A stretch of 11,296 bases of DNA from Acidithiobacillus sulfuriphilus. GTDB taxonomy: Bacteria > Pseudomonadota > Gammaproteobacteria > Acidithiobacillales > Acidithiobacillaceae. The stretch is from contig NZ_RIZI01000112.1 of assembly GCF_003721225.1 (NCBI RefSeq), positions 1-11,296 on the forward strand. The letters run 5' to 3'. The position numbers and the translations under genes are program-made. Shown here piece after piece: positions 1,659-11,084 of the stretch. The notes under the pieces were generated by a model, which had not been told where the DNA came from, did not search any database, and saw only the letters and a list, made by a program, of their open reading frames with translations. How positions within the stretch are numbered: position 1 is the first letter of the stretch; every line of letters begins with the position of its first letter.

Positions 1659-2678
1659 CTACGCGATCCGTGGCGGCAGCGCTGCGCGCGGCTCTACTGT
1701 GGCGATGGAATCCTTGCGACTGGCAGCACCCCCTTCCCGGTGCAGGGGCGCCAAAAGTTGGAGGATATCCGTAAAGATCCGGGCGAAGTCGTCGAGGCTG
1801 TGCTGGAGCTGCTCCACCCCGGCACCCAACTCGTTGGCGGCAGCGATTTCGGCGTCGCCGCCGGTGACGATCTCCTCCATGTTCCGGCGGGTGGTCTGGG
1901 CCGACTGGTTGGCCATTCCCAGGACCTCCGCCACGGTTTCGAGGGAATCCCCGCCCCGGCGCAGATGGACGAGGCTATCGGCCACCCCGGCCTCGACGCT
2001 GGTGGCGCCGCTATTGATGGTAGTAGCGGCGGTCTGGATCTCGGTAGCGGCGGTAGCGGAGCTTTGGGCGAGTTTTTTGACTTCATCGGCCACCACGGCA
2101 AAGCCGCGGCCGTGCTCGCCGGCCCGCGCGGCCTCAATGGCGGCATTGAGGGCGAGGAGATTGGTTTGTTTGGCAATCTCCCGCACCTTGGCGGTAAGGT
2201 CGGTGATGGTGCGGGTACTCTGCAGGAAGATGCGGACGGTTTCCCCCATGTGGGTGACGGCCTGCTCCACCAAGTCCATCTCGCCGATCAGTTCGGACAG
2301 CCGCTCATTGCCGAGCTGCACCTCGCGCACGGTCTCTTCGGCCAGGGTCCGGTTTTCGGCGAGGCGCTGGGCGGAATCGTGCATGCTGTCCACTACGGTT
2401 TTGGCAACCAGGGAGAGAGCTGCCGCTTCGCTCTGCGTATGCTGGAGTTCCTGCGCAAAATCCACGCCCATGAGCTGGGTATCGACGGCACCCTGCAGGC
2501 CGGCAAACGGATGATCGACGCTCTCCAGGGCGTGCCGTTGGAATTTGTGCAGACGCTCCAGGACGGGCGCGGCGAGGGCGGCCAGTTGGCCATCCCCTTC
2601 CAGACGGGAGAGCACCGGCGCATCACCATCGAGGAAAGCGGTGAGGTAGAGGATCAGGTTTTCTGCATTCTGGGACAT
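1659..2678 (-). CDS. Soluble methyl-accepting chemotaxis protein (no membrane segment)
   Basis: Chemoreceptor of 339 residues. The conserved cytoplasmic tip is intact at about 167-203: [20 protein letters not shown], then [15 protein letters not shown], the site that contacts CheA and CheW/CheV. Helical arms flank it (about 90-166 and 203-315). No hydrophobic stretch is long enough to span the membrane, so the protein should be cytoplasmic. The first 85 residues form a helical region without a recognisable sensor fold (no PAS, GAF or globin motif seen), so the signal is unknown. The C-terminus (ALPPRIA) lacks the NWxTF-like pentapeptide that tethers CheR/CheB in some receptors. The ATG at 2678 has AGGAG seven to eight bases upstream and lies 11 bases after the cheV stop. 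A small membrane protein follows six bases downstream. Confidence 0.92.
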
Positions 2679-2689
2679 GCCGATGTCTC

Positions 2690-3643
2690 CTAGGTAGTGG
2701 CGATGGCCTTGGCCACGGCTCGGGCCAGGTCGTCGGGCAGGAACTTGGCCACATAGCCATCGGCGCCGACGCTATTGGCATGGGATTCGTTGGCGGATCC
2801 CGAGAGGGAGGAATGGATGACGACGGGAATGGCCTTGAGGATCTCGTTTTCCTTGATCTTGCGGGTCAAGGTGAAGCCATCCATTTCCGGCATTTCCAGA
2901 TCGGTGAGGACCATGGCCACCTTCTGGCGGATGGGAATGCCCGCCGTCCGCGCCTCCTGGGCCAGCGCCTGCAGGCGCTCCCAGGCTTCCTTGCCGCTCT
3001 TGGTGCCGATGAAAGGCAAGCCGAGCCTCGTCAGGGCCTTCTCGATCTGGCTGCGGGCCACGCCGGAGTCGTCGGCATAGAGGATCACCGATCCTTGGGG
3101 AATGCTGACGTGATGCTCCTGGGTGATTTCATCACCGGCCTTGAAACGGGAGGGCAGGACCTGGCGGAGGATCTGCTCCACGTCCAGGACCAGGGCGAGG
3201 CGGGATTTTTCCTCGTCTTCATCGAGGCGGGCAAGGCTGGTGACCATGCCGCCCACGGCCGCCCCTTCGGCGGACATCACTTGGCCCCACTCCAGGCGCA
3301 TGATCTCTTCGACTTCTTCCACGGCAAAACCCTGGATGGACCGCTCATACTCGGTGACGAGAAGGATGTTGCGACCTGTCGGCTTGCATCCCACCACGGC
3401 GGGCAGGTCGATGACGGGGATGATCTGGCCGCGGATGTTGGCCACCCCCAGCACATGCTGGGGGGCGCCGGGCATGGGGGTGATGGGCGGCATCACCAGG
3501 GCCTCACGCACCTTGAAGACGTTGATACCGAAAAGCTCGCGGCTGCTGGAGCGAGTATCCACTCCCAAACGGAAAATCAGGAGTTCAAACTTGTTGGTGC
3601 CGGCAAGCTTGGAGCGTTCATCCACTTCCTGCAAGGTGCTCAT
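2690..3643 (-). CDS. cheV: CheV: CheW-like coupling domain fused to a receiver domain
   Basis: Adaptor linking receptors to CheA, with a phosphorylatable receiver that tunes the coupling. The 317 residues divide into a CheW-like domain (about 18-165; [38 protein letters not shown] are typical) and a receiver domain (about 185-315). Receiver active-site residues are visible: acidic pair Asp191-Asp192, phospho-acceptor Asp248 in [12 protein letters not shown], Ser278 in place of the usual Thr/Ser, and Lys300. In the receiver, the Tyr of GYVAK (297) aligns with the switch aromatic of CheY. The start ATG overlaps the stop of the upstream PAS receptor by four bases (ATGA), indicating translational coupling. 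No separate cheW lies in the window, so CheV may be the main coupling protein for the receptors encoded here, unless cheW is elsewhere. Confidence 0.96.
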
Positions 3644-4590
3644 GATACCATCTCCAGACGAGAAACCAGTTTTTTGATAGCCGAGGTGACTTTGCTGATA
3701 TCGGTGAAGCTGTGGTTGGCCGTACTGACCAATTCCTGGGCCTGCTCGATGAGATGATTGTTTTCCCCGGATTTTTGGGCAATATCGCCCATGGCGACGC
3801 TAATGCCCTGGGTATTTTCCTGAATCTCCCGGGTGGCGTCCTGTACCCTTTTGGCCAGGTTACGCACCTCGTCGGCCACGACTGCGAAGCCCCGTCCATG
3901 CTCTCCGGCGCGGGCCGCCTCAATGGCCGCATTGAGGGCCAGGAGATTGGTTTGCGCGGCGATTTCCCGGATCGTATTGACGATGTTGTTGATTTCGATG
4001 GTTTGCGTGCCCAACTTCTCCAGCGACTTTCTGAACTGGGTGTTGATGTCCAATACATGGGCAGTTTGGCGCGCCACGTTCTGGATGGCCTGGCCACCCT
4101 CCCTGGTTTTTTCTTCCAGTTCCACGCTTACCGCGGACAGGGATTTTTCGTATTCCTTTTGCGCGGTAATATCCTGGGCATTTTTGACGATCCTTTCGAC
4201 TGATCCATCCACGCCTCTGATGGGTGTGTATTCGGCTTCCAGCCAGATGCTCTTGCCGTCTTTGCGGGTTCTCTGAAAAATGCCTTTTTGCTCGTTTCCC
4301 GCGCGCAGTTGTTCCCAGAACCTGGCATAGTCCGGACTCGCGGCGTAAACAGGGTCGCAGAGGATACGATGATGCTGGCCGCGTAATTCGTCGATGGTAT
4401 AGCCGGTCGCTGTGAGGAAATTTCCATTGGCTGCCGTAATGATCCCATCGGGGGTGAACTCGACGATGGCCATGGTATGATTGATGGCCTCCCACAAGGT
4501 GCAAAGATCCGCATATTTCTTCCGGATGACTTCGGGATCGTCGGAAACGGCGCAATTTTCCAGATCTTCGGGGTATGCTGGTGTCGCCAT
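3640..4590 (-). CDS. Cytoplasmic PAS-domain chemoreceptor (BdlA/AerC-like)
   Basis: 316-residue receptor with one N-terminal PAS domain (about 30-145) and an MCP signalling domain. The PAS shows [48 protein letters not shown] and [17 protein letters not shown], followed by the typical exit motif DIT (140-142). This is the pattern of PAS domains in BdlA, AerC and Aer-like receptors, several of which bind FAD or haem; cofactor binding here is inferred only. The MCP tip is complete at about 207-243 ([20 protein letters not shown]...). No membrane segment is present. The C-terminus (RLEMVS) has no CheR-tethering pentapeptide. The start is ATG 4590, 16 bases after the ODP-like gene's stop, with GGAG 11 bases upstream, somewhat long spacing. 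The stop overlaps the cheV start by four bases. Its placement beside a putative diiron oxygen sensor suggests redox or oxygen taxis. Confidence 0.94.
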
Positions 4591-4606: not shown

Positions 4607-5371
4607 TTACGCATGCATTGCAGACAGGGCCGTACCCACCGGCAAGGCGTCGAACCAGTGCAAAAAGCGCTGGACGTTTTCCCCGGCGTAGATGGCGCCG
4701 TGCTGGGGGCAGAGAAAGTCGATGTCGAGTTGCCTGACGCGGCTGATCCAGTCCTTCTTGGCCTCATTGGAAGGCATCCAGCGTTGATGGAAGAACTTCG
4801 CGTGCTGGATATGTTCATCGAAGGCCTTGCTGGATTCTGGATCACGGCGGTCCACCCAGGCGCTGTGGCCCGGCGGCAGCAGTGCCGCCCCCACGTCGCC
4901 GGAGAAGAAAACCTTGGCTTCCGGGTCATAGACATGGAAGTTGGCCGAGGAGTGCAGGTAATGGGCGGGGATGAATTCCAGCTTGCGCCCGCCGATGACG
5001 AGTTCTCTTCCTTCGTCGGGGATGCTGACAAAATGGGCGTCCAGGGCGCCGTAATGGCGGATGAAGCCTTCCCAGAGCTTGGGGATATGCCAGTGGATCT
5101 TGCCGTTGCAGGCATTCCATAAGGGCAGGCTGGAGGCGATGTCCGGATCCTGGTGGGAGACGAAGGCGGCCTGGAGAGAAGAAGGCTGGACCACCTCCAC
5201 CATGGCCGCAAAGATCTGGGGGAAGATCTCGAAGCCGCCGGGGTCCAGCAGGATGCTCTGCCCGTTGGACTCCATGACATAGACGTTGGAGTCGATGACC
5301 CGGTGTTCATCCTGGTCATGGAGGATCCACCAACGGTGATCGCCTGATTCAAAAACCGGTGCCGCTTTCAT
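4607..5371 (-). CDS. Metallo-beta-lactamase-fold diiron protein, ODP/flavodiiron-like, in a chemotaxis operon
   Basis: 254 residues with the metallo-beta-lactamase fold of flavodiiron proteins but no flavodoxin domain. Likely metal ligands, by analogy to the His-x-Glu-x-Asp...His...Asp...His set of that family: His73, Asp75, Asp77 in [15 protein letters not shown]; His140 (or His137) in [15 protein letters not shown]; Asp159 in FFSGDVG; His224 in CPQHGAIY. Note Asp for Glu at the second position, and Ile78 where many lactamase-fold hydrolases have His. A closely related kind, ODP of Treponema denticola, is known to bind two irons and oxygen and to act with CheA in chemotaxis, so an Fe/O2 sensing role is plausible here (inference). 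Hydrolase activity looks unlikely. The ATG at 5371 is chosen for GGAGGA about nine bases upstream; it overlaps the end of the preceding gene by 23 bases. An upstream in-frame ATG at 5434 lacks such a site. Confidence 0.87.
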
Positions 5372-5969
5372 GCAAAAGTTCCTCCAATTGGTTGCGGTAG
5401 CTGCGGATGGCATCGCGCACGATGCCCACGGCATTGCCCATGTCCCGGGAAACGCGCATCAGCGGAGCCCCCGTATCTTCGGACAGGGCGGCCTCGATGC
5501 GGCCATTGGTGACAACATATTCCTGTTCGGCAATCCCCTCCTGAATCCGGTTTACGGCCTGGATGAGGATGTACAAGATGTTCAGCGCCTCGGCCTCCTC
5601 GGCAGCGATGGTCTGTGCCCAGGTTTCCTCGGTGCAGCCGAGGGTAGGGCAGATTTTTCCGGCCCCATCCATGGTTTCGCGCATGCGCCGGAAGAGATCG
5701 GCATAGCTGCGGTGTTGCAGGATGCGCATGTGGGCCTGGATGAGCGGCGCTATGGATTTCTGCATATGGGAAGCCGCTTCCTTGAGGTCGGCGGCACCCT
5801 CGCGGAAGGCGCGGGCGACTACGCCGTAGCCCGCCAGGGCGTTGCCGTGGCGCTTGACCAGCACCATGGCATTGAGGGCGCGGCGATCAATATCCCGCAG
5901 CGCGCCTTCAATGCTGTGTCGCGTTTGGTAAGAGGCCTCGACGATGGCCATGATGCGCTGGATATCCAT
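5349..5969 (-). CDS. Small helical protein resembling a degenerate chemoreceptor signalling tip
   Basis: 206 residues, mostly predicted helical, with no membrane segment. I do not know a named family. Residues 31-70 can be laid over a receptor tip: [20 protein letters not shown] followed by [20 protein letters not shown] parallels [20 protein letters not shown] and VADEVRKLA of true receptors. Arg40 sits at the receptor-tip Arg (Tsr Arg388); Asn43 replaces the tip Glu (Tsr Glu391). Only about 30 residues precede the tip, so a full receptor hairpin is impossible. The rest (70-206) contains CPTLGC (two Cys at 107 and 112) and a long helical end. The start codon is joined to the cheA stop as TGATG, and the end overlaps the ODP-like gene. 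The coupling to cheA suggests a partner of CheA or of the ODP-like protein. The similarity could also be a coincidence of helical sequence. Confidence 0.8.
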
Positions 5970-8047
5970 CAGGCGACTCCTTCCATGTCGGCAATGGCCG
6001 CGGCGGTGAGGGCACTGGGATCGAGGATGAGGACGACGCTGCCCTTGCCGGAGATGGTCGCACCCTGGTACCAGTTCTCATCGGCCAGGAAGTCGATGGG
6101 CTTGACCACCGAGTCTTCATTGCCGAGGACCTCCGAAACGATAAAGAGGCCGCGATCGGTGAGCACGCCCTCGATGCTTTCGGAGCGTAGCGCCAAGGGT
6201 TTATGGTGGAGCAGGGCGCCGAGATCCACCACCGGGGTCACCTGAGCGCCGTCAATCCGGTAGACGGTACGCCCGTTGAGGCGGTGCATACGGGTCTCGC
6301 TGACGTCAATGAGGCTCTCGATGGCCGATACCGGCATGGCGTAGACATCCCGTCGCAAGCGCAGGTAGAGGACCGGCAGCACGGCCAGGGTGAGGGGGAA
6401 TTCCATGGCGATGCTGGTGCTCTGGCCCAGGCGGGTCTGGAGATCCAGGCGGCCGCGCAGCTTGCGGGCGGTCTCCTTGACCACGTCCATGCCGACGCCG
6501 CGGCCCGAGAGGTCCGTGGCCTGGTCCTTGGTGGAGAAGCCGGGCCGGAAGATGAGTTCCAGGGCCTCCTGCTCCGAGAGGCGGGCGGCCTGCTCGGCGC
6601 TGATGACGCCCTTGTCGATGGCCTTTTGGGTGACGAACTGGCGATCAATGCCCTTGCCGTCGTCGGAGACCTCGATGCGGACCTTGTCGCCCAGATGGAT
6701 GGCGGCGACGCGCAGGGTGGCGGTACGCGCCTTGCCGGCGGCGGCCCGTTCCTCGGGCCCTTCGATGCCGTGGTCCAGGCTGTTGCGCACCAGATGGGTC
6801 ATGGGGCCGGAGAGGGCATCGACGACGGTCTTGTCGATCTCCACGTCCTCGCCCACGATCTCCAGCTTGACCTCTTTGCCCAGTTGCCGGGAGACATCGC
6901 GCACCACTCGGGGCAATTGCTGGAAGAGGCGCTTGCAAGGCTGCATGCGCAGGCGCATGACGGTGTTCTGGATATCGTTGACGGTGAGGTCCATTTCCCG
7001 GGCGATGCGGGCCATGTCCTCGTTTTCCTCCCCGAGACTGCTCACGGCCGAGGCGAGGCGATTGCGCAGGAGCACGAGCTCTCCCACCTGATTCATGACC
7101 GCATCCAGACGCACGGCATCGACGCGCAGGGTGGTCTCGGCGGCCTCGGGGGCGGTGGCAGCGCCGGTCTTGGGGGGGGTAGCCACGACTGCTGATGTCG
7201 ACCCAGGATCCGCCTTGACGCCAGGGAGCGCTTGCGCATGACCACCCCCTTTGCTGATGGCGCCCATGACTGTGCTAGGTGGCGTATCATGGCGTAACGC
7301 CGGTGCCGGGACGATCCCCGGGGCTTGGTCGCCATACAGGTCATCCAGCACCTTTTCGAATTCGTCTTCGGTGATCTCGTCGCTGGCAGCGCAGGCCGCT
7401 TCGGCACTATCCATAAGGCCGGGGGCTTTGTTGCCGTAGAGGGCATCGAGGGTGGCTTCGAATTCTTCCGCGGTGATCTCGTCCGTCTTTCCGGTGGAAT
7501 GCTCCGTGGCGCCTTCGGGCAAGCGCTCCACATAAACGCCGGTGCGGCCATCACCGGTACTTTGTTGGCGGGCCAGGAGGGTGGCGTCCATGTCGGTACA
7601 AAGGATGGGAGTGCGGTCCACCCCCGGCTCGATGCCCTGTGCGGCAGGAGGGTTCCCGGCCGCCGGCGGGCGTCCGGCGGCCAAATTCTGAATGACCTGT
7701 CCCAGGTCCGCGGGCCCCGCTCCCGGGTTGTCTCCCTGGGCCAATTCCCGGAGCATGCCGTCGATGACGTCCAGCCCCTTGAGGATGGTGTCGATCATGA
7801 TGGGGCTCACCGGCAGACTGTGGGAGCGCAGTTTGTCGAGGAGGTCTTCCAGGTGATGGGTCCAGTCGACGAGGTGGTCGGCGTCGAGGAAGCCCGCTCC
7901 GCCCTTGAGGGTGTGAAAGGCGCGAAAAACCGAAGCGAGGACCTCGTCGTTACCCGGGTCCGCCTCCAGGCGCAGGGTATCTTCCTGGGCTTTTTCCAGC
8001 AGTTCCCGCGCCTCGGGCAGATAGTCCTGCAGAATCTCCATGTCCAT
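5969..8047 (-). CDS. cheA: Chemotaxis histidine kinase CheA
   Basis: 692-residue sensor kinase that takes receptor signals and phosphorylates CheY. Domains in order: P1 Hpt (1-about 125) with phosphorylation site His45 in FHTLKGGAGF; a long low-complexity linker (about 125-305) in place of a recognisable P2 domain; P3 dimerisation (about 305-370, RLDAVMNQVGELVLLRNRL); P4 kinase with N box LVRNSLDHGIEGPEER (419-434), G1 DDGKGID (462-468), F box FRPGFST (500-506) and G2 GRGVGMDVV (515-523); and a C-terminal CheW-like P5 (about 550-692). All catalytic boxes look intact. The linker holds two tandem copies of an acidic-aromatic motif (191-210 and 225-244) and a C8 run. ATG 8047 lies two bases after the cheZ stop, with GGGG upstream; a second ATG two codons later is an alternative. 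The stop joins the next gene as TGATG. Confidence 0.98.
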   Translation of the reverse strand: MDMEILQDYLPEARELLEKAQEDTLRLEADPGNDEVLASVFRAFHTLKGGAGFLDADHLVDWTHHLEDLLDKLRSHSLPVSPIMIDTILKGLDVIDGMLRELAQGDNPGAGPADLGQVIQNLAAGRPPAAGNPPAAQGIEPGVDRTPILCTDMDATLLARQQSTGDGRTGVYVERLPEGATEHSTGKTDEITAEEFEATLDALYGNKAPGLMDSAEAACAASDEITEDEFEKVLDDLYGDQAPGIVPAPALRHDTPPSTVMGAISKGGGHAQALPGVKADPGSTSAVVATPPKTGAATAPEAAETTLRVDAVRLDAVMNQVGELVLLRNRLASAVSSLGEENEDMARIAREMDLTVNDIQNTVMRLRMQPCKRLFQQLPRVVRDVSRQLGKEVKLEIVGEDVEIDKTVVDALSGPMTHLVRNSLDHGIEGPEERAAAGKARTATLRVAAIHLGDKVRIEVSDDGKGIDRQFVTQKAIDKGVISAEQAARLSEQEALELIFRPGFSTKDQATDLSGRGVGMDVVKETARKLRGRLDLQTRLGQSTSIAMEFPLTLAVLPVLYLRLRRDVYAMPVSAIESLIDVSETRMHRLNGRTVYRIDGAQVTPVVDLGALLHHKPLALRSESIEGVLTDRGLFIVSEVLGNEDSVVKPIDFLADENWYQGATISGKGSVVLILDPSALTAAAIADMEGVA
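7172..7179 (-). repeat. C8 run in the cheA linker
   Basis: Eight G on the plus strand, read in cheA as A-C8-AAG, encoding Thr-Pro-Pro-Lys near residue 290, just before the dimerisation domain. The frame is intact here. A slip of one base would cut off P3 to P5. Confidence 0.85.
7316..7483 (-). repeat. Tandem motif duplication in CheA linker (two copies of about 20 residues)
   Basis: Copy 1 is TAEEFEATLDALYGNKAPG (residues 192-210), copy 2 is TEDEFEKVLDDLYGDQAPG (226-244); both are preceded by DEI. They are separated by 14 residues. Similarity holds at protein and DNA level (shared plus-strand GGTGATCTCGTC before each). They lie where a CheY/CheB-binding P2 domain would be expected. Confidence 0.85.
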
Positions 8048-8049
8048 GG

Positions 8050-8538
8050 CTATATCCCCAGTTCGGCCAGCAGGGCGTCCACATCGTCCTGATTGATGCG
8101 CTCGTCGGCCGTGCAGGGCGCTGCGGCGCAGGCGGCTTCGGCACCTTCCAGGCCCAGTTCATCCAAGGTGAGGCGGATGCGGTTTTCCACGGCATGGAGC
8201 AGGGCAATGGCCTTTTTCAGCCGCTGACCGGCCAGATCCTGCCCCTGCTGGCTGGCGAGGATGGTGCCCAAGGCACTGTCGATGTGATCCAGGGGCCCGT
8301 CGATGAAGGTGCCGTTGGCGCGGCGGATCTCCTGCACCGCCTCCTGGGCCCGTTCGACGGCGGCGATGGTGGCCATGGCCTGTTCCTCGGTCAGGCGCAG
8401 GGCCTCTTCCAGGGGGGATTGGGCATCGGGGAGATCGGACTGGGCGCTGGCAATGCGCTTCAAGCCCTCGCGGAGCAGGAGCTCGGCCTCGCCGAGCAGG
8501 CGCGCGGGGTCGGACGGTTTTTTGACGGTGTCGGTCAT
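8050..8538 (-). CDS. cheZ: CheY-phosphate phosphatase CheZ (short form)
   Basis: 162 residues, clearly shorter than the roughly 210 of enteric CheZ. It dephosphorylates CheY-P. The catalytic helix is present as [18 protein letters not shown] (93-110): Asp101 and Gln105 correspond to Asp143 and Gln147 of E. coli CheZ, the salt-bridge and water-orienting residues. The C-terminal CheY-binding peptide is present as [13 protein letters not shown] (150-162), close to the enteric QDQVDDLLDSLGF, joined to the catalytic bundle by a linker containing two Cys (137, 142). The missing length is in the N-terminal helical bundle. The ATG at 8538 overlaps the cheY stop by four bases (ATGA). The pairing cheY-cheZ-cheA matches the arrangement in pseudomonads. 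Confidence 0.96.
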
Positions 8539-8954
8539 TGTTTGGCCCCCGCGGCGGCTTGCAAGCGTTTGAAGATGGCGTCGAGCTTTTCGCGCAGGGT
8601 CTCGGCGGTGAAGGGCTTGACGATGTAGCCGTTGACCCCGGCCTGGGCCGCTTCGAGGATGTTTTCGCGCTTGGCCTCGGCGGTGACCATGAGGATGGGG
8701 ATGTGCTTGAGCTGGGGATCGGCGCGAATGGCCCGGAGGAGGTCGATGCCCTGCATGTTGGGCATGTTCCAGTCGGTAACGACGAAATCGAAGGAACGGT
8801 TACGCAACTTTTGCAGCGCCTGCACTCCGTCCTCGGCCTCGTCGAAGTTGGTGAAGCCGATCTCCCGCAGGAGGTTGCGCACGATCCTGCGCATGGTGGA
8901 AAAATCGTCCACCACCAGGATATGGATGTTTTTATCAACCTGATCAATACCCAT
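8535..8954 (-). CDS. cheY: Chemotaxis response regulator CheY
   Basis: Single receiver domain, 139 residues from the ATG at 8954; it carries the signal from CheA to the flagellar switch. Active site complete: Asp16-Asp17, phospho-acceptor Asp61 in [14 protein letters not shown], Thr91, switch Tyr110 and Lys113 in NGYIVKPF. All are offset by four from E. coli CheY, and the WNMPNM signature is typical of true CheY rather than other receivers. The start at 8954 is preferred over ATG 8972 because AAAAGGG lies seven bases before it, whereas 8972 has no good site and lies in the leader after a hairpin. It is the first gene of the long che run and lies about 165 bases downstream of a sigma-28-type promoter. 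Its stop overlaps the cheZ start. Confidence 0.97.
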
Positions 8955-8978
8955 GAATGTACCCTTTTCCATCTGCCT

Positions 8979-8995
8979 GGGCCCGGCGCGGGCCC
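8979..8995 (-). promoter_or_regulatory. GC hairpin in the cheY leader
   Basis: GGGCCC, loop GGCGC, GGGCCC: six perfect pairs with a five-base loop, ending 24 bases before the cheY start. It lies in the predicted leader RNA just before the ribosome binding site, so it may influence translation or be a processing site. No function is proven. Confidence 0.45.
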
Positions 8996-9125
8996 GTATC
9001 GGCGCGGGATTTTATCGAAGAAAGCGGTGTCCTGTCCTACTCCGCCGGAATGCCACATGGCGGGCGTATCAAGCAAATCCCATACCGGGCTGGAAGGTCC
9101 CTTGGGCGTTTGCCTCGTTACCTTC

Positions 9126-9152
9126 TTTACGGCACATTCGGGGAAAACTTTA
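9126..9152 (-). promoter_or_regulatory. Sigma-28 (FliA) class promoter for the cheY-cheZ-cheA run
   Basis: Minus strand: TAAAGTTT (9152-9145), an 11-base spacer, then GCCGTAAA (9133-9126). The enteric sigma-28 consensus is TAAAGTTT, 11 bases, GCCGATAA: the -35 is exact, the spacing exact and the -10 matches 6 of 8. Transcription would start near 9118, leaving a leader of about 165 bases before cheY. It makes the che run a late (class III) flagellar unit. Confidence 0.75.
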
Positions 9153-9196
9153 GGGAGCGGCCGCCATGAACCGGGCGGGCCGGTCGATGAAATGGC

Positions 9197-9222
9197 AGGG
9201 GCGGACGCAGCGGCCCGCCCCT
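9197..9222. terminator. Stem-loop after the SPOR gene, without T run
   Basis: AGGGGCGG and CCGCCCCT pair perfectly over eight bases with a ten-base loop. It lies between the SPOR gene and the sigma-28 promoter. It could slow or end transcription from the motB-SPOR unit, but no T run follows on the minus strand, so it is not a canonical intrinsic terminator. Confidence 0.4.
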
Positions 9223-9235
9223 AGGGGATGATGGA

Positions 9236-9255
9236 GAGGGGGGCTATGCCCCCTC
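9236..9255. terminator. Stem-loop directly after the SPOR stop codon, without T run in that direction
   Basis: GAGGGGG pairs with CCCCCTC (seven base pairs) around the loop GCTATG, beginning seven bases after the SPOR stop on the minus strand. It has no T run on the minus side; on the plus side a TTTT follows after a few bases. It is a possible weak terminator or 3'-end stabilising structure. Confidence 0.4.
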
Positions 9256-9262
9256 GTCGCTT

Positions 9263-10033
9263 TTACTGCGTCCCCGGCCAGTGCTGGGGATAGCCCTGAT
9301 GGCCGGTGAGTTGGGCGATGCGGGCGGTGACGTTGCTGGCGGCAAAGCGGCTGGGCAGAGGGCCCACCAGCACCCGATGGAGGCGGTTTTGCGGCAAGGT
9401 GGCCACACAGGCGCTAAAGCCTTGCTTCTGCAGTTTGGCCACGAGGGGCTGAGTGGCCGAAACCCGGCCGAAGGCCCCCAGTTGCACATACCAGCCTGCG
9501 GTTTTGCAGGCATTGGCCGGTGGCGCGGGCTGCGCCGTGGCCTTGGCGGCGGCCTGGGGATGCGTTGCATTGGCTACTGCTTTGCGCGGTTCTTGGGCGG
9601 GAGCGGCGGCCTTTTTCCCGGTGACCGGTTTCTGGGCAAGGGGGACCGTCGCGGCGTTTGGCGTGCCTGAGTGCGCTGCGGCTACCGGTATAACCGGACG
9701 CACGGGTACCGCGGGTGCGGCAGCATGGGAGGGGGTGGCGGCAGTCGGTGGTGCTGCCGAGGCGGCGATGGAAGTGGTGCTGCCCATGGCCGGCGGGAGC
9801 GCCGGGGTACTCGTCGCCGGAGCGGTGCCGGGGCTCGCCAGGGGAGCGGTGGAGAGGCTGAGGTAAACGGTTTTTTTGCCGTCGGCGGGAGTGGAAAGGG
9901 GGGCCTTGGAGCGGCTGGCGAGAAAAATGCCGAGGCTGACCAGCAGGATGAGCAGCAGTGCGCCGAGGATGATCCGGTTGAGGCGGGTTTGCTGTTGCTG
10001 GAGGCGTTCCAGGTCGTCTTGGGGCTTGCTCAT
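9263..10033 (-). CDS. Membrane-anchored SPOR-domain protein
   Basis: 256 residues: short cytoplasmic, Gln-rich N-terminus, one membrane helix (about 20-39, IILGALLLILLVSLGIFLA), a long Ala/Pro/Thr-rich linker (about 45-178) and a C-terminal SPOR domain (about 180-250; GWYVQLGAFGRVSATQPLVA, KQGFSACVATL, HRVLVGPLPS). SPOR domains bind denuded peptidoglycan glycans in the periplasm; the layout resembles DedD/FtsN-type proteins but the linker is simple and unrelated. Two Cys in or near the domain (176, 209) could form a disulphide. ATG 10033 is chosen because GAAGGA lies about six bases upstream; earlier in-frame ATGs (10087) overlap motB and lack such a site. It lies 31 bases after motB, also a peptidoglycan-binding protein, so a role in anchoring or siting the motor in the wall is plausible but unproven. 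Confidence 0.88.
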   Translation of the reverse strand: MSKPQDDLERLQQQQTRLNRIILGALLLILLVSLGIFLASRSKAPLSTPADGKKTVYLSLSTAPLASPGTAPATSTPALPPAMGSTTSIAASAAPPTAATPSHAAAPAVPVRPVIPVAAAHSGTPNAATVPLAQKPVTGKKAAAPAQEPRKAVANATHPQAAAKATAQPAPPANACKTAGWYVQLGAFGRVSATQPLVAKLQKQGFSACVATLPQNRLHRVLVGPLPSRFAASNVTARIAQLTGHQGYPQHWPGTQ

Positions 10034-10064: not shown

Positions 10065-10907
10065 TTAACCGCGGTCACCAATGGCACCGGCCATGATGGG
10101 TGAATCGCCGGCTTTTTTGGGGAACTGGGGGGCGACGATGACGATGCTGACGCGCCGGTTCATGGCGAGCCCCTCGGGAGTATCGTTGGGCGCGATGGGA
10201 TGATATTTGCCATAGCCTGCGGCGACCAGGTTATCGGGGTTGACCCCTTGCTGGATGAAGAGTTCGACCACCGATACCGCACGAATGGCGGAGAGGGCCC
10301 AGTTGGATTGGAACTGCGGGCTATGGATGGGCAGGTCGTTGGTGAAGCCGTTGACCTGGATCTGATAGGGCAGCCGGCGTAAGACCTGGGCGACGCTGGT
10401 GAGGGTGGTGACCGCCGGTGGGGTCAAATCCGCCTGTCCCGAGGGGAAGAGGATCTTGGCATTGATGTCCAGCACCACGCCGAGACCGGTCCGGTGTACG
10501 GCCACGCTACCCTGTTGGATCAAGGGCCGTAGAAGCGATTTGATCTCTTTTTCGACGCGATCCATGGCGGCATCGCGGGCGAGGGGGGGCTGGACGTTGG
10601 CGGCAACCTTTCCGTGGGGGACTTGGGGGACGGGGGCGATGTCCACGACTTTGGGTAAGGGCGGGAGTTTGAGGGGCATTGGTGCGCCCGTGGGCGCCTG
10701 ACCCGCACGGATGGGCACGGGGGACCAGGGCTGGCCGCTGAAGGCGGCGACCAGGGTGGAGGACAGCACCCTGTATTTGCCTTCGTTGACGGAGGAGATG
10801 GCATACATCACCACAAAGAAGGAAAACAGCAGGGTGATGAAGTCGGCGTAGGAAACCAGCCAGCGTTCATGATTTTCCCATTCTTCCTCTCTTTTGCGAC
10901 GGGCCAT
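10065..10907 (-). CDS. motD: Flagellar motor stator protein MotB (MotD type)
   Basis: 280-residue stator subunit. One membrane helix (about 18-38) carries the proton-binding Asp22 in WLVSYADFITLLFSFFVVMY. It is followed by NEGKYRVLS, a proline-rich linker (about 57-110) and an OmpA-like peptidoglycan-binding domain (about 135-260: FPSGQADLTPPA, QVNGFTND, SNWALSAIRAVSVVELF, GYGKYHPIAPNDTPEGLAMN, RRVSIVIV). The ENHERWLVSYADFITLLF start and the placement beside che genes match MotD of pseudomonads more than enteric MotB. The ATG at 10907 is chosen because AGGAGG ends ten bases upstream; ATG 10916 would leave only one base of spacing. The MotA/MotC channel partner is not adjacent: the next gene upstream is divergent. 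The SPOR gene follows 31 bases downstream, probably in the same transcript. Confidence 0.95.
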   Translation of the reverse strand: MARRKREEEWENHERWLVSYADFITLLFSFFVVMYAISSVNEGKYRVLSSTLVAAFSGQPWSPVPIRAGQAPTGAPMPLKLPPLPKVVDIAPVPQVPHGKVAANVQPPLARDAAMDRVEKEIKSLLRPLIQQGSVAVHRTGLGVVLDINAKILFPSGQADLTPPAVTTLTSVAQVLRRLPYQIQVNGFTNDLPIHSPQFQSNWALSAIRAVSVVELFIQQGVNPDNLVAAGYGKYHPIAPNDTPEGLAMNRRVSIVIVAPQFPKKAGDSPIMAGAIGDRG

Positions 10908-11084
10908 TATTGCCATGCCTCCTGGTTTTTGGCGGACGGCTCGATGGCCCATCGTGATGGGGCACCGCCGCTTCCTTTTTATAACTTAGTCGGGAAAAGG
11001 AAAAAAAACCAGAGTGCTGGCGGATGATTCCGGATCGGGCATGAGTTCTGCATACGACTCCCTGCACATGGGGAGGATAAGATC
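10908..11084. other. Divergent intergenic region between motB/motD and the plus-strand gene
   Basis: 177 bases separating two divergent genes. It contains the AGGAGG of motB (10918-10923), an A8 run and AT-rich patch (about 10974-11008), a sigma-54-like site and the GGAGG of the plus-strand gene (11072-11076). I see no clear promoter for motB: TATAAA occurs on the minus strand in the AT-rich patch but has no good -35 partner. Confidence 0.6.
11037..11052 (+). promoter_or_regulatory. Possible sigma-54 promoter for the plus-strand gene
   Basis: GGGCATGAGTTCTGCA compares with the sigma-54 consensus TGGCAYRNNNNTTGCW: GG and GC have the required 10-base separation, with two mismatches (first T to G, and TTGC to CTGC). 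A start near 11063 would leave a leader of about 22 bases, including the ribosome binding site. Sigma-54 commonly drives flagellar genes. Confidence 0.4.

Follow-up and report, generated by a model that had tools for sequence, protein, structure and literature searches.

Gene content of the locus

The window, i.e. the whole stretch of DNA that was analysed (11,296 nucleotides), is a complete contig (C16) of the 2.81-Mb genome of Acidithiobacillus sulfuriphilus. On its minus strand the genes are arranged in the order motD, a SPOR-like gene, cheY, cheZ, cheA, orf206, ODP, PAS-MCP, cheV, a sensorless soluble MCP, a small ORF, an EAL gene and an unassigned ORF. The flagellar motor gene motD (10065..10952; NCBIfam PRK09038 over cut-off) is followed by the SPOR-like gene, whose matches to DedD/FtsN are weak, then by cheY (8535..8972; a single receiver domain, Pfam PF00072), cheZ (8050..8538; PF04344) and cheA (5969..8047), which encodes a 692-aa protein with Hpt, H-kinase_dim, HATPase_c and CheW domains and whose sole further match in the genome is a 50-residue stretch. 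After cheA come orf206 (5349..5969), encoding a putative degenerate receptor-tip protein of 206 aa (identified by profile homology to MCPs and as the ODP neighbor), and the ODP gene (4607..5371; identified by Pfam, phmmer and an AF2 model).

Downstream of the ODP gene lie a soluble PAS-MCP (3640..4590; PAS and MCPsignal domains, with the scanned piece covering 3640-4560 and the ATG at 4590 checked), cheV (2690..3643; a CheW domain and a receiver) and a soluble MCP of 339 aa with no recognised sensor domain (1659..2678; MCPsignal alone was found). The preliminary description had the ODP gene packed between cheA-linked and receptor genes, and this arrangement is what we found: cheA and orf206 upstream, and PAS-MCP, cheV and the sensorless MCP downstream, all on the minus strand. 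An EAL-domain protein is encoded on the same strand downstream of the receptor genes (570-1316), and could possibly tie c-di-GMP turnover to the che operon.

Family, fold and predicted metal site of the ODP

The ODP gene (P0001) is an intact ORF that occupies exactly 4607-5371 on the minus strand (the strand had not been given before) and encodes 254 aa. Its product matches Pfam PF19583 (ODP) with 227 bits against a cut-off of 27.2 (E 2.5e-67), a level at which a chance match is negligible; the cut-off by itself is lax, because 9 of 14 control genomes pass it. There is a superfamily match to PF00753 (Lactamase_B) as well. According to phmmer, the solved ODPs are the best PDB sequences (198 and 162 bits, as compared to 40 for flavodiiron proteins), with 30–37% identity over the full length. 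As had been proposed, the structure was predicted and overlaid on solved ODPs: using Foldseek, the AF2 model (pLDDT 88) gave TM-scores of 0.88–0.90 to the T. maritima ODP (6qrq, 6qwo; for 6qwo, TM 0.90 and rmsd 2.0) and of 0.83–0.85 to the T. denticola ODP (6qnm, 6r9n), all by query length. An ODP recorded under Acidithiobacillus sp. has 96% identity to it, and the NCBI names of orthologues are divided between 'oxygen-binding di-iron domain-containing protein' and 'MBL fold metallo-hydrolase'.

The four motifs listed in the preliminary description (HQDPD, LHSS, SGD and PQHG) are all present, as H73-Q-D75-P-D77 (5141..5155, minus strand, as for the other sites), L-H140-S-S (H140 at 4952..4954), S-G-D159 (D159 at 4895..4897) and P-Q-H224-G (H224 at 4700..4702). 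The predicted metal-ligand positions H73, D75, D77, H140, D159 and H224, assigned by alignment, are invariant among 18 aligned ODPs, and Q74 is replaced by Glu in one of them; D159 is the predicted bridging ligand, a role that we take from flavodiiron proteins. The earlier label of a 'flavodiiron-type' ligand set holds for most ligands and fails at the second position, where the window protein has Asp as in the solved ODPs (HxDxD) and the aligned flavodiiron protein has Glu (flavodiiron proteins carry the motif HxExD). The metallo-beta-lactamase domain and most ligands are thus in common with flavodiiron proteins (TM0755, the core of E. coli flavorubredoxin), but the C-terminal flavodoxin/FMN domain of these proteins is not: as claimed before, Pfam finds only ODP and Lactamase_B in the ODP gene, and no flavodoxin domain in it or in the scanned neighbor genes.

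Two enzymatic readings of the protein can be weighed on these data. That it is a zinc hydrolase of the metallo-beta-lactamase fold, to which the PF00753 match would point, is hardly credible: zinc hydrolases of this fold carry the motif HxHxDH, the window protein has HQDPDI, and its ODP matches are far higher than those to any hydrolase. It is only slightly less improbable, and still very unlikely, that the ODP removes O2, NO or peroxide as an enzyme guarding the array rather than acting as a sensor; the fold is indeed that of flavodiiron O2/NO reductases, but HxDxD replaces HxExD, a flavodoxin domain was found neither in the ODP gene nor in the scanned neighbors, and the constant partner (see below) is receptor-like. 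The matches to PF19583 and to solved ODPs, the predicted fold and the invariant ligand positions together place the sensor in a known family, and therefore the 254-aa protein is, by sequence and model, a member of the ODP family and not merely ODP-like. The preliminary 'diiron ODP-like sensor' in a che operon was in this respect an understatement.

Relation of orf206 to the chemoreceptor tip

The preliminary description called the upstream neighbor of the ODP gene no more than cheA-linked and missed that orf206 is a separate gene, which overlaps the start of the ODP gene by 23 nt. No Pfam family is found in orf206 over its cut-off. The first hint came from sub-threshold matches to the MCP tip and to TM14, and the match to the MCP signalling domain PF00015 reaches 15.4 bits, below the cut-off of 34.6; among 29 members of the orf206 family, 18 match PF00015 at E 0.01 or better (member 1 scores 31.2 bits, also below the cut-off).

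The comparison to MCPs is weak for orf206 and its close relatives and strong by the wider family only. Alone, orf206 gives E 0.07 in PDB, and a 27-row alignment of close relatives gives an hhalign E of 8.5e-4, with 1 of 200 heptad-block shuffles scoring as high. The profile of the wider family matches MCP with E 2.8e-12 (a score of 84, as compared to a maximum of 42 among 150 heptad-block shuffles), and in a PDB profile search TM14 is its best match (E 3.1e-13). These profile comparisons indicate that the orf206 family is related by homology to the MCP signalling tip.

One orf206 chain probably contains two tip-like repeats. Repeat 1 (residues 27-60; 5790..5891, minus strand) keeps the equivalents of N381, R388 and G390 (Tsr numbering) in 48, 41 and 42 of 48 relatives, respectively. 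Receptor features have nevertheless been lost, none of the 48 having Glu at the position that corresponds to E385. Repeat 2 (residues 152-178; 5436..5516, minus strand) is less certain; it is placed by the match of the C half of the family to MCP (E 2.9e-8, a score reached by 1 of 200 block shuffles) and by a helix break at 163-167 in the model, and an E385-like glutamate is kept in 43 of the 48 relatives. According to DSSP, the helix of the model runs through repeat 1 with no obvious hairpin. Foldseek returned no PDB match for the model at E 0.001 or better, and VIA-align returned bundles of common arrangement only; we therefore make no fold claim for orf206. A candidate CPxxGC metal motif was rejected because the cysteines are not conserved, and a PHROGs search gave nothing useful.

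TM14, a sensorless cytoplasmic receptor of 213 aa (3g6b, 3g67), is similar in length to orf206, and its strong match covers the first part of the partner family (profile positions 11-144). What sets the orf206 family apart from TM14 is the loss of receptor residues and, apparently, a second tip-like repeat. Single-chain receptors, natural and engineered, as described in parts of a published study (PMC4692393), have two receptor signalling units per chain, as in our reading of orf206, but in them complete receptors or complete soluble signalling domains are linked (Tsr~Tsr, Rhodospirillum centenum), whereas orf206 has only 206 aa and is far more diverged.

Pairing of ODP and orf206 across genomes

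In 16 named loci of the window type (L005-L020, comprising Acidithiobacillus, three contigs named only Proteobacteria and two acidobacterial MAG contigs), orf206 lies directly before the ODP gene in every case, and cheA precedes orf206 in 15 (contig L007 begins too late to include it). Thirteen other named loci, which include Shewanella, Oleispira, Pseudoalteromonas, Methylomicrobium, Rhodospirillales and Sneathiellales, show an ORF of 200–297 aa directly before the ODP gene in 12 cases, L028 beginning too close to the gene. The wider set consists of the fetched distinct loci in which the match starts in the first 30 residues, and 68 of these have an ODP identity of 41% or more (the frame-broken L032 included). 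An upstream ORF of 150 aa or more is found in 66 of the 68; its end falls anywhere from 23 nt past to 121 nt short of the extrapolated ODP start, which is overlapped in 42 of the 66 cases; the two exceptions are L078, with a frame that lacks a common start codon, and L028, cut by the contig end. L031, with an ODP identity of 40.7%, has an upstream ORF too. Among seven ODPs of lower identity, six have no such upstream ORF, and L062 has one of 428 aa. We aligned 48 of the 66 partner ORFs; the remaining 18 are copies from Acidithiobacillaceae, covered by the survey of 29 family genomes.

We then used a partner profile (A3, from 29 partners) on 369 genomes drawn evenly from the larger class, with about 8 candidates scored per genome. 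There are 32 partner matches with 111–233 bits, and the next match has 60 bits; from there down the frames mostly have about 400 aa or more and are apparently ordinary receptors. Each of the 32 partner matches above the gap is immediately followed by an ODP of at least 200 bits. Conversely, among the 33 ODP matches that reach this score, 32 are directly preceded by the partner (the exception, in G120, has 201 bits). None of the ODP matches under 200 bits in these genomes has a strong partner, including those in G043, G284, G047 and G061:C14 (41–43% identity), and no strong partner match was found with the ODP fragments in G111 (62% identity over half the length) and G344. As the profile was built from ODP neighbors, many of them from the sampled genomes, the weight of this result rests on no strong partner having been found away from an ODP. 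The 30 genomes of the class sample that carry the pair all have at least two further matches to the partner profile, apparently ordinary receptors, as compared to 219 of the 339 other genomes with any such match (one-sided p 4e-6, relatedness ignored).

In two places (G018:C1:1098605-1099350 and L032:10001-10733) the ODP frame appears split and the partner frame open. The two acidobacterial MAG contigs (L010 and L017) have the order cheA-orf206-ODP-MCP-cheV, very like that of Acidithiobacillus, with ODP identities of 76–78%; this likeness may be due to horizontal transfer between acidophiles or to misbinning. No earlier description of these partner genes was met in the literature searched, a body of partial texts to which the founding ODP article by Muok et al. 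(PNAS, 2019) did not belong.

Chemotaxis context of the pair

Clear che genes were found within 1.5 kb in 36 of 69 loci, of which 30 have cheA or cheV and 6 have cheW or cheB together with cheR. The other 33 show none or weak matches only (34–40 bits, in most cases probably the partner itself; some of the contigs are short), and many pairs are therefore not embedded in che operons. Six loci (L068, L072, L074, L078, L089 and L095) have a different che context, with the order cheW or cheB, partner, ODP, cheR. In L022 (Methylomicrobium; 6343-9271), a second ODP gene, followed by an ORF of 718 aa, lies just upstream of the partner–ODP pair; the 718-aa ORF weakly matches the EAL protein of the window (24%), and this second ODP is possibly coupled to c-di-GMP signalling.

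In the home family, ODP-1, orf206 and the window-type cheA are found in the same 23 of 29 genomes (ODP-1 was scored at 75% identity or more, some copies being in fragments). Six genomes lack the window-type cheA (G004, G008, G020, G023, G024, which is 61% complete, and G028), and five of these six retain ODP-2. Since ODP-1, orf206 and cheA are linked, their shared distribution is that of a single operon gained or lost, with the retained ODP-2 as the contrast. ODP-2 (G000:C169, L003:2098-3275) is about 36–38% identical and overlaps a roadblock/LC7-like ORF; the two occur together in all six family genomes inspected, which are that of the window and five of the six without the window-type cheA. 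ODP-2 beside its roadblock protein does not follow the pattern of ODP-1, orf206 and cheA.

These distributions bear on whether the pair belongs to flagellar taxis at all. It may instead be an O2-responsive module of, e.g., a different CheA-like pathway, which only some lineages have brought into the che operon; the 33 of 69 loci with no clear che gene nearby, the pairing of ODP-2 with a roadblock protein and the published ODP fusions and ODPs that share operons with other signalling genes (PMC7319448, in part) would all fit. We nevertheless consider this improbable: the home-family genomes without the pair are exactly those without the window-type cheA, and every genome of the class sample in which the pair was seen has other receptor-like matches too.

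The ordinary receptors of the operon offer a further route. As proposed for T. denticola, the ODP could signal mainly via ordinary receptors, here the 339-aa sensorless MCP or the PAS-MCP; orf206 would then be only an accessory or stabiliser. In T. denticola, genetic coupling links the ODP to an MCP homologue that lacks a sensing module, and loss of the ODP alters CheA ordering (PMC7666581, in part); a review likewise has the ODP interacting with its cognate receptors (PMC6978683, in part). Of the 16 named operons of the window type, 11 have a match to the sensorless soluble MCP (L016 and L019 end before its position, and L006, L010 and L017 show none). But the constant neighbor is orf206 and not an ordinary MCP (in 32 of the 33 ODP matches of 200 bits or more), and orf206 stands beside the ODP gene even in loci with no clear che gene within 1.5 kb. 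Nor is there a PAS-MCP-like match between the ODP gene and cheV in L006, L009, L011 and L013, because of which the PAS-MCP was rejected as a conserved partner. Signalling mainly through the ordinary receptors is thus unlikely, though it is the strongest of the alternatives weighed here.

Comparison with published systems

ODPs have been described in operons with MCP genes in two orders, in operons with other signalling genes and in fusions (TREND paper, PMC7319448, in part). The legend for a che cluster of At. ferrivorans CF27 lists MCPs, CheV, a 'flavoprotein', CheA, CheZ, CheY and MotB, with the 'flavoprotein' between CheV and CheA (PMC5468388), and judging from the legend this is evidently an operon of the window kind. 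From the A. caldus gene tags given in parts of another paper, 1445 is cheW and 1448 is cheA (PMC6543871), leaving room for two genes, which we infer to be ODP and orf206; a gene deletion in A. caldus is reported there as well. Neither CheO of Campylobacter nor the Corallococcus cluster, in the portions of the sources consulted, concerns an ODP gene, and both were set aside.

The preliminary description saw in the window a second architecture of O2/Fe(II) taxis. The operon type does differ from that described for T. denticola, with cheZ, cheV and motD present, but several ODP operon types and the CF27 cluster are already in print. The window ODP is like the T. denticola and T. maritima ODPs in fold, ligand set and the lack of a flavin domain, and the T. 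denticola ODP is likewise coupled to a receptor-like protein. For the T. denticola ODP, a peroxo absorbance that depends on O2 has been reported. The partners differ: that of T. denticola is an MCP homologue without sensing modules, whereas that of the window is divergent, below the Pfam MCP cut-off, and apparently has two tip-like repeats.

On its own, the ODP adds one more member to an established family, in a setting of a kind already described. What appears to be new is the near-constant, unannotated partner of probable receptor origin.

Proposed mechanism and significance

Our best explanation, which we favor with somewhat more confidence than doubt, is that the ODP, with its predicted di-iron site, works with orf206, a receptor-tip derivative that probably has two tip-like repeats, to shift CheA activity and flagellar switching. 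Because the near-constant partner is receptor-derived by its profile, the likely signalling route, as read from the genes, changes to one from ODP via orf206 to the CheA/CheV layer. To the computed family, fold, ligand conservation, gene pairing, co-occurrence with cheA and homology of orf206 to the MCP tip, the mechanism adds a putative metal identity, O2 binding, ODP–orf206 contact, array entry and sign of effect. The ODP, a stand-alone protein of the metallo-beta-lactamase fold, would bind O2 at its predicted di-iron site and respond to Fe(II), and its metal/O2 state would alter how it engages orf206. The latter, helical and presumably derived from a receptor tip, would sit at or near the CheA/CheV layer of the array beside the ordinary soluble MCPs of the operon, where it would shift CheA autophosphorylation; CheY-P, removed by CheZ, would then set flagellar switching along O2/redox gradients.

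More tentatively, and as an idea that we find plausible though not yet probable, the orf206 family may represent a kind of array component that has gone unrecognised. Two degenerate complementary tips in a single chain would make up a natural minimal receptor, whose purpose is to plug the ODP, as oxygen sensor, into the array; such receptors would span Gammaproteobacteria and (with two MAG loci each) Alphaproteobacteria and Acidobacteriota.

The preliminary description held that such a sensor would make sense in an iron- or sulfur-oxidising acidophile; iron oxidation as a specific cause is not supported. An ODP orthologue is named from A. caldus and a partner from A. thiooxidans, both known as sulfur-only oxidisers, and the pair occurs in many other genomes of the class. 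An iron-oxidiser-specific sensor was rejected because the genes are found in these sulfur-only Acidithiobacillus and in genera such as Shewanella.

The ODP–orf206 pair is a testable one for how a soluble O2/Fe sensor without a receptor domain reaches CheA, and is relevant to bioleaching acidophiles and to other Gammaproteobacteria such as Shewanella. For the 'hypothetical protein' beside cheA in Acidithiobacillus it gives a likely origin, and to array biology orf206 offers a natural minimal, perhaps single-chain, receptor tip.
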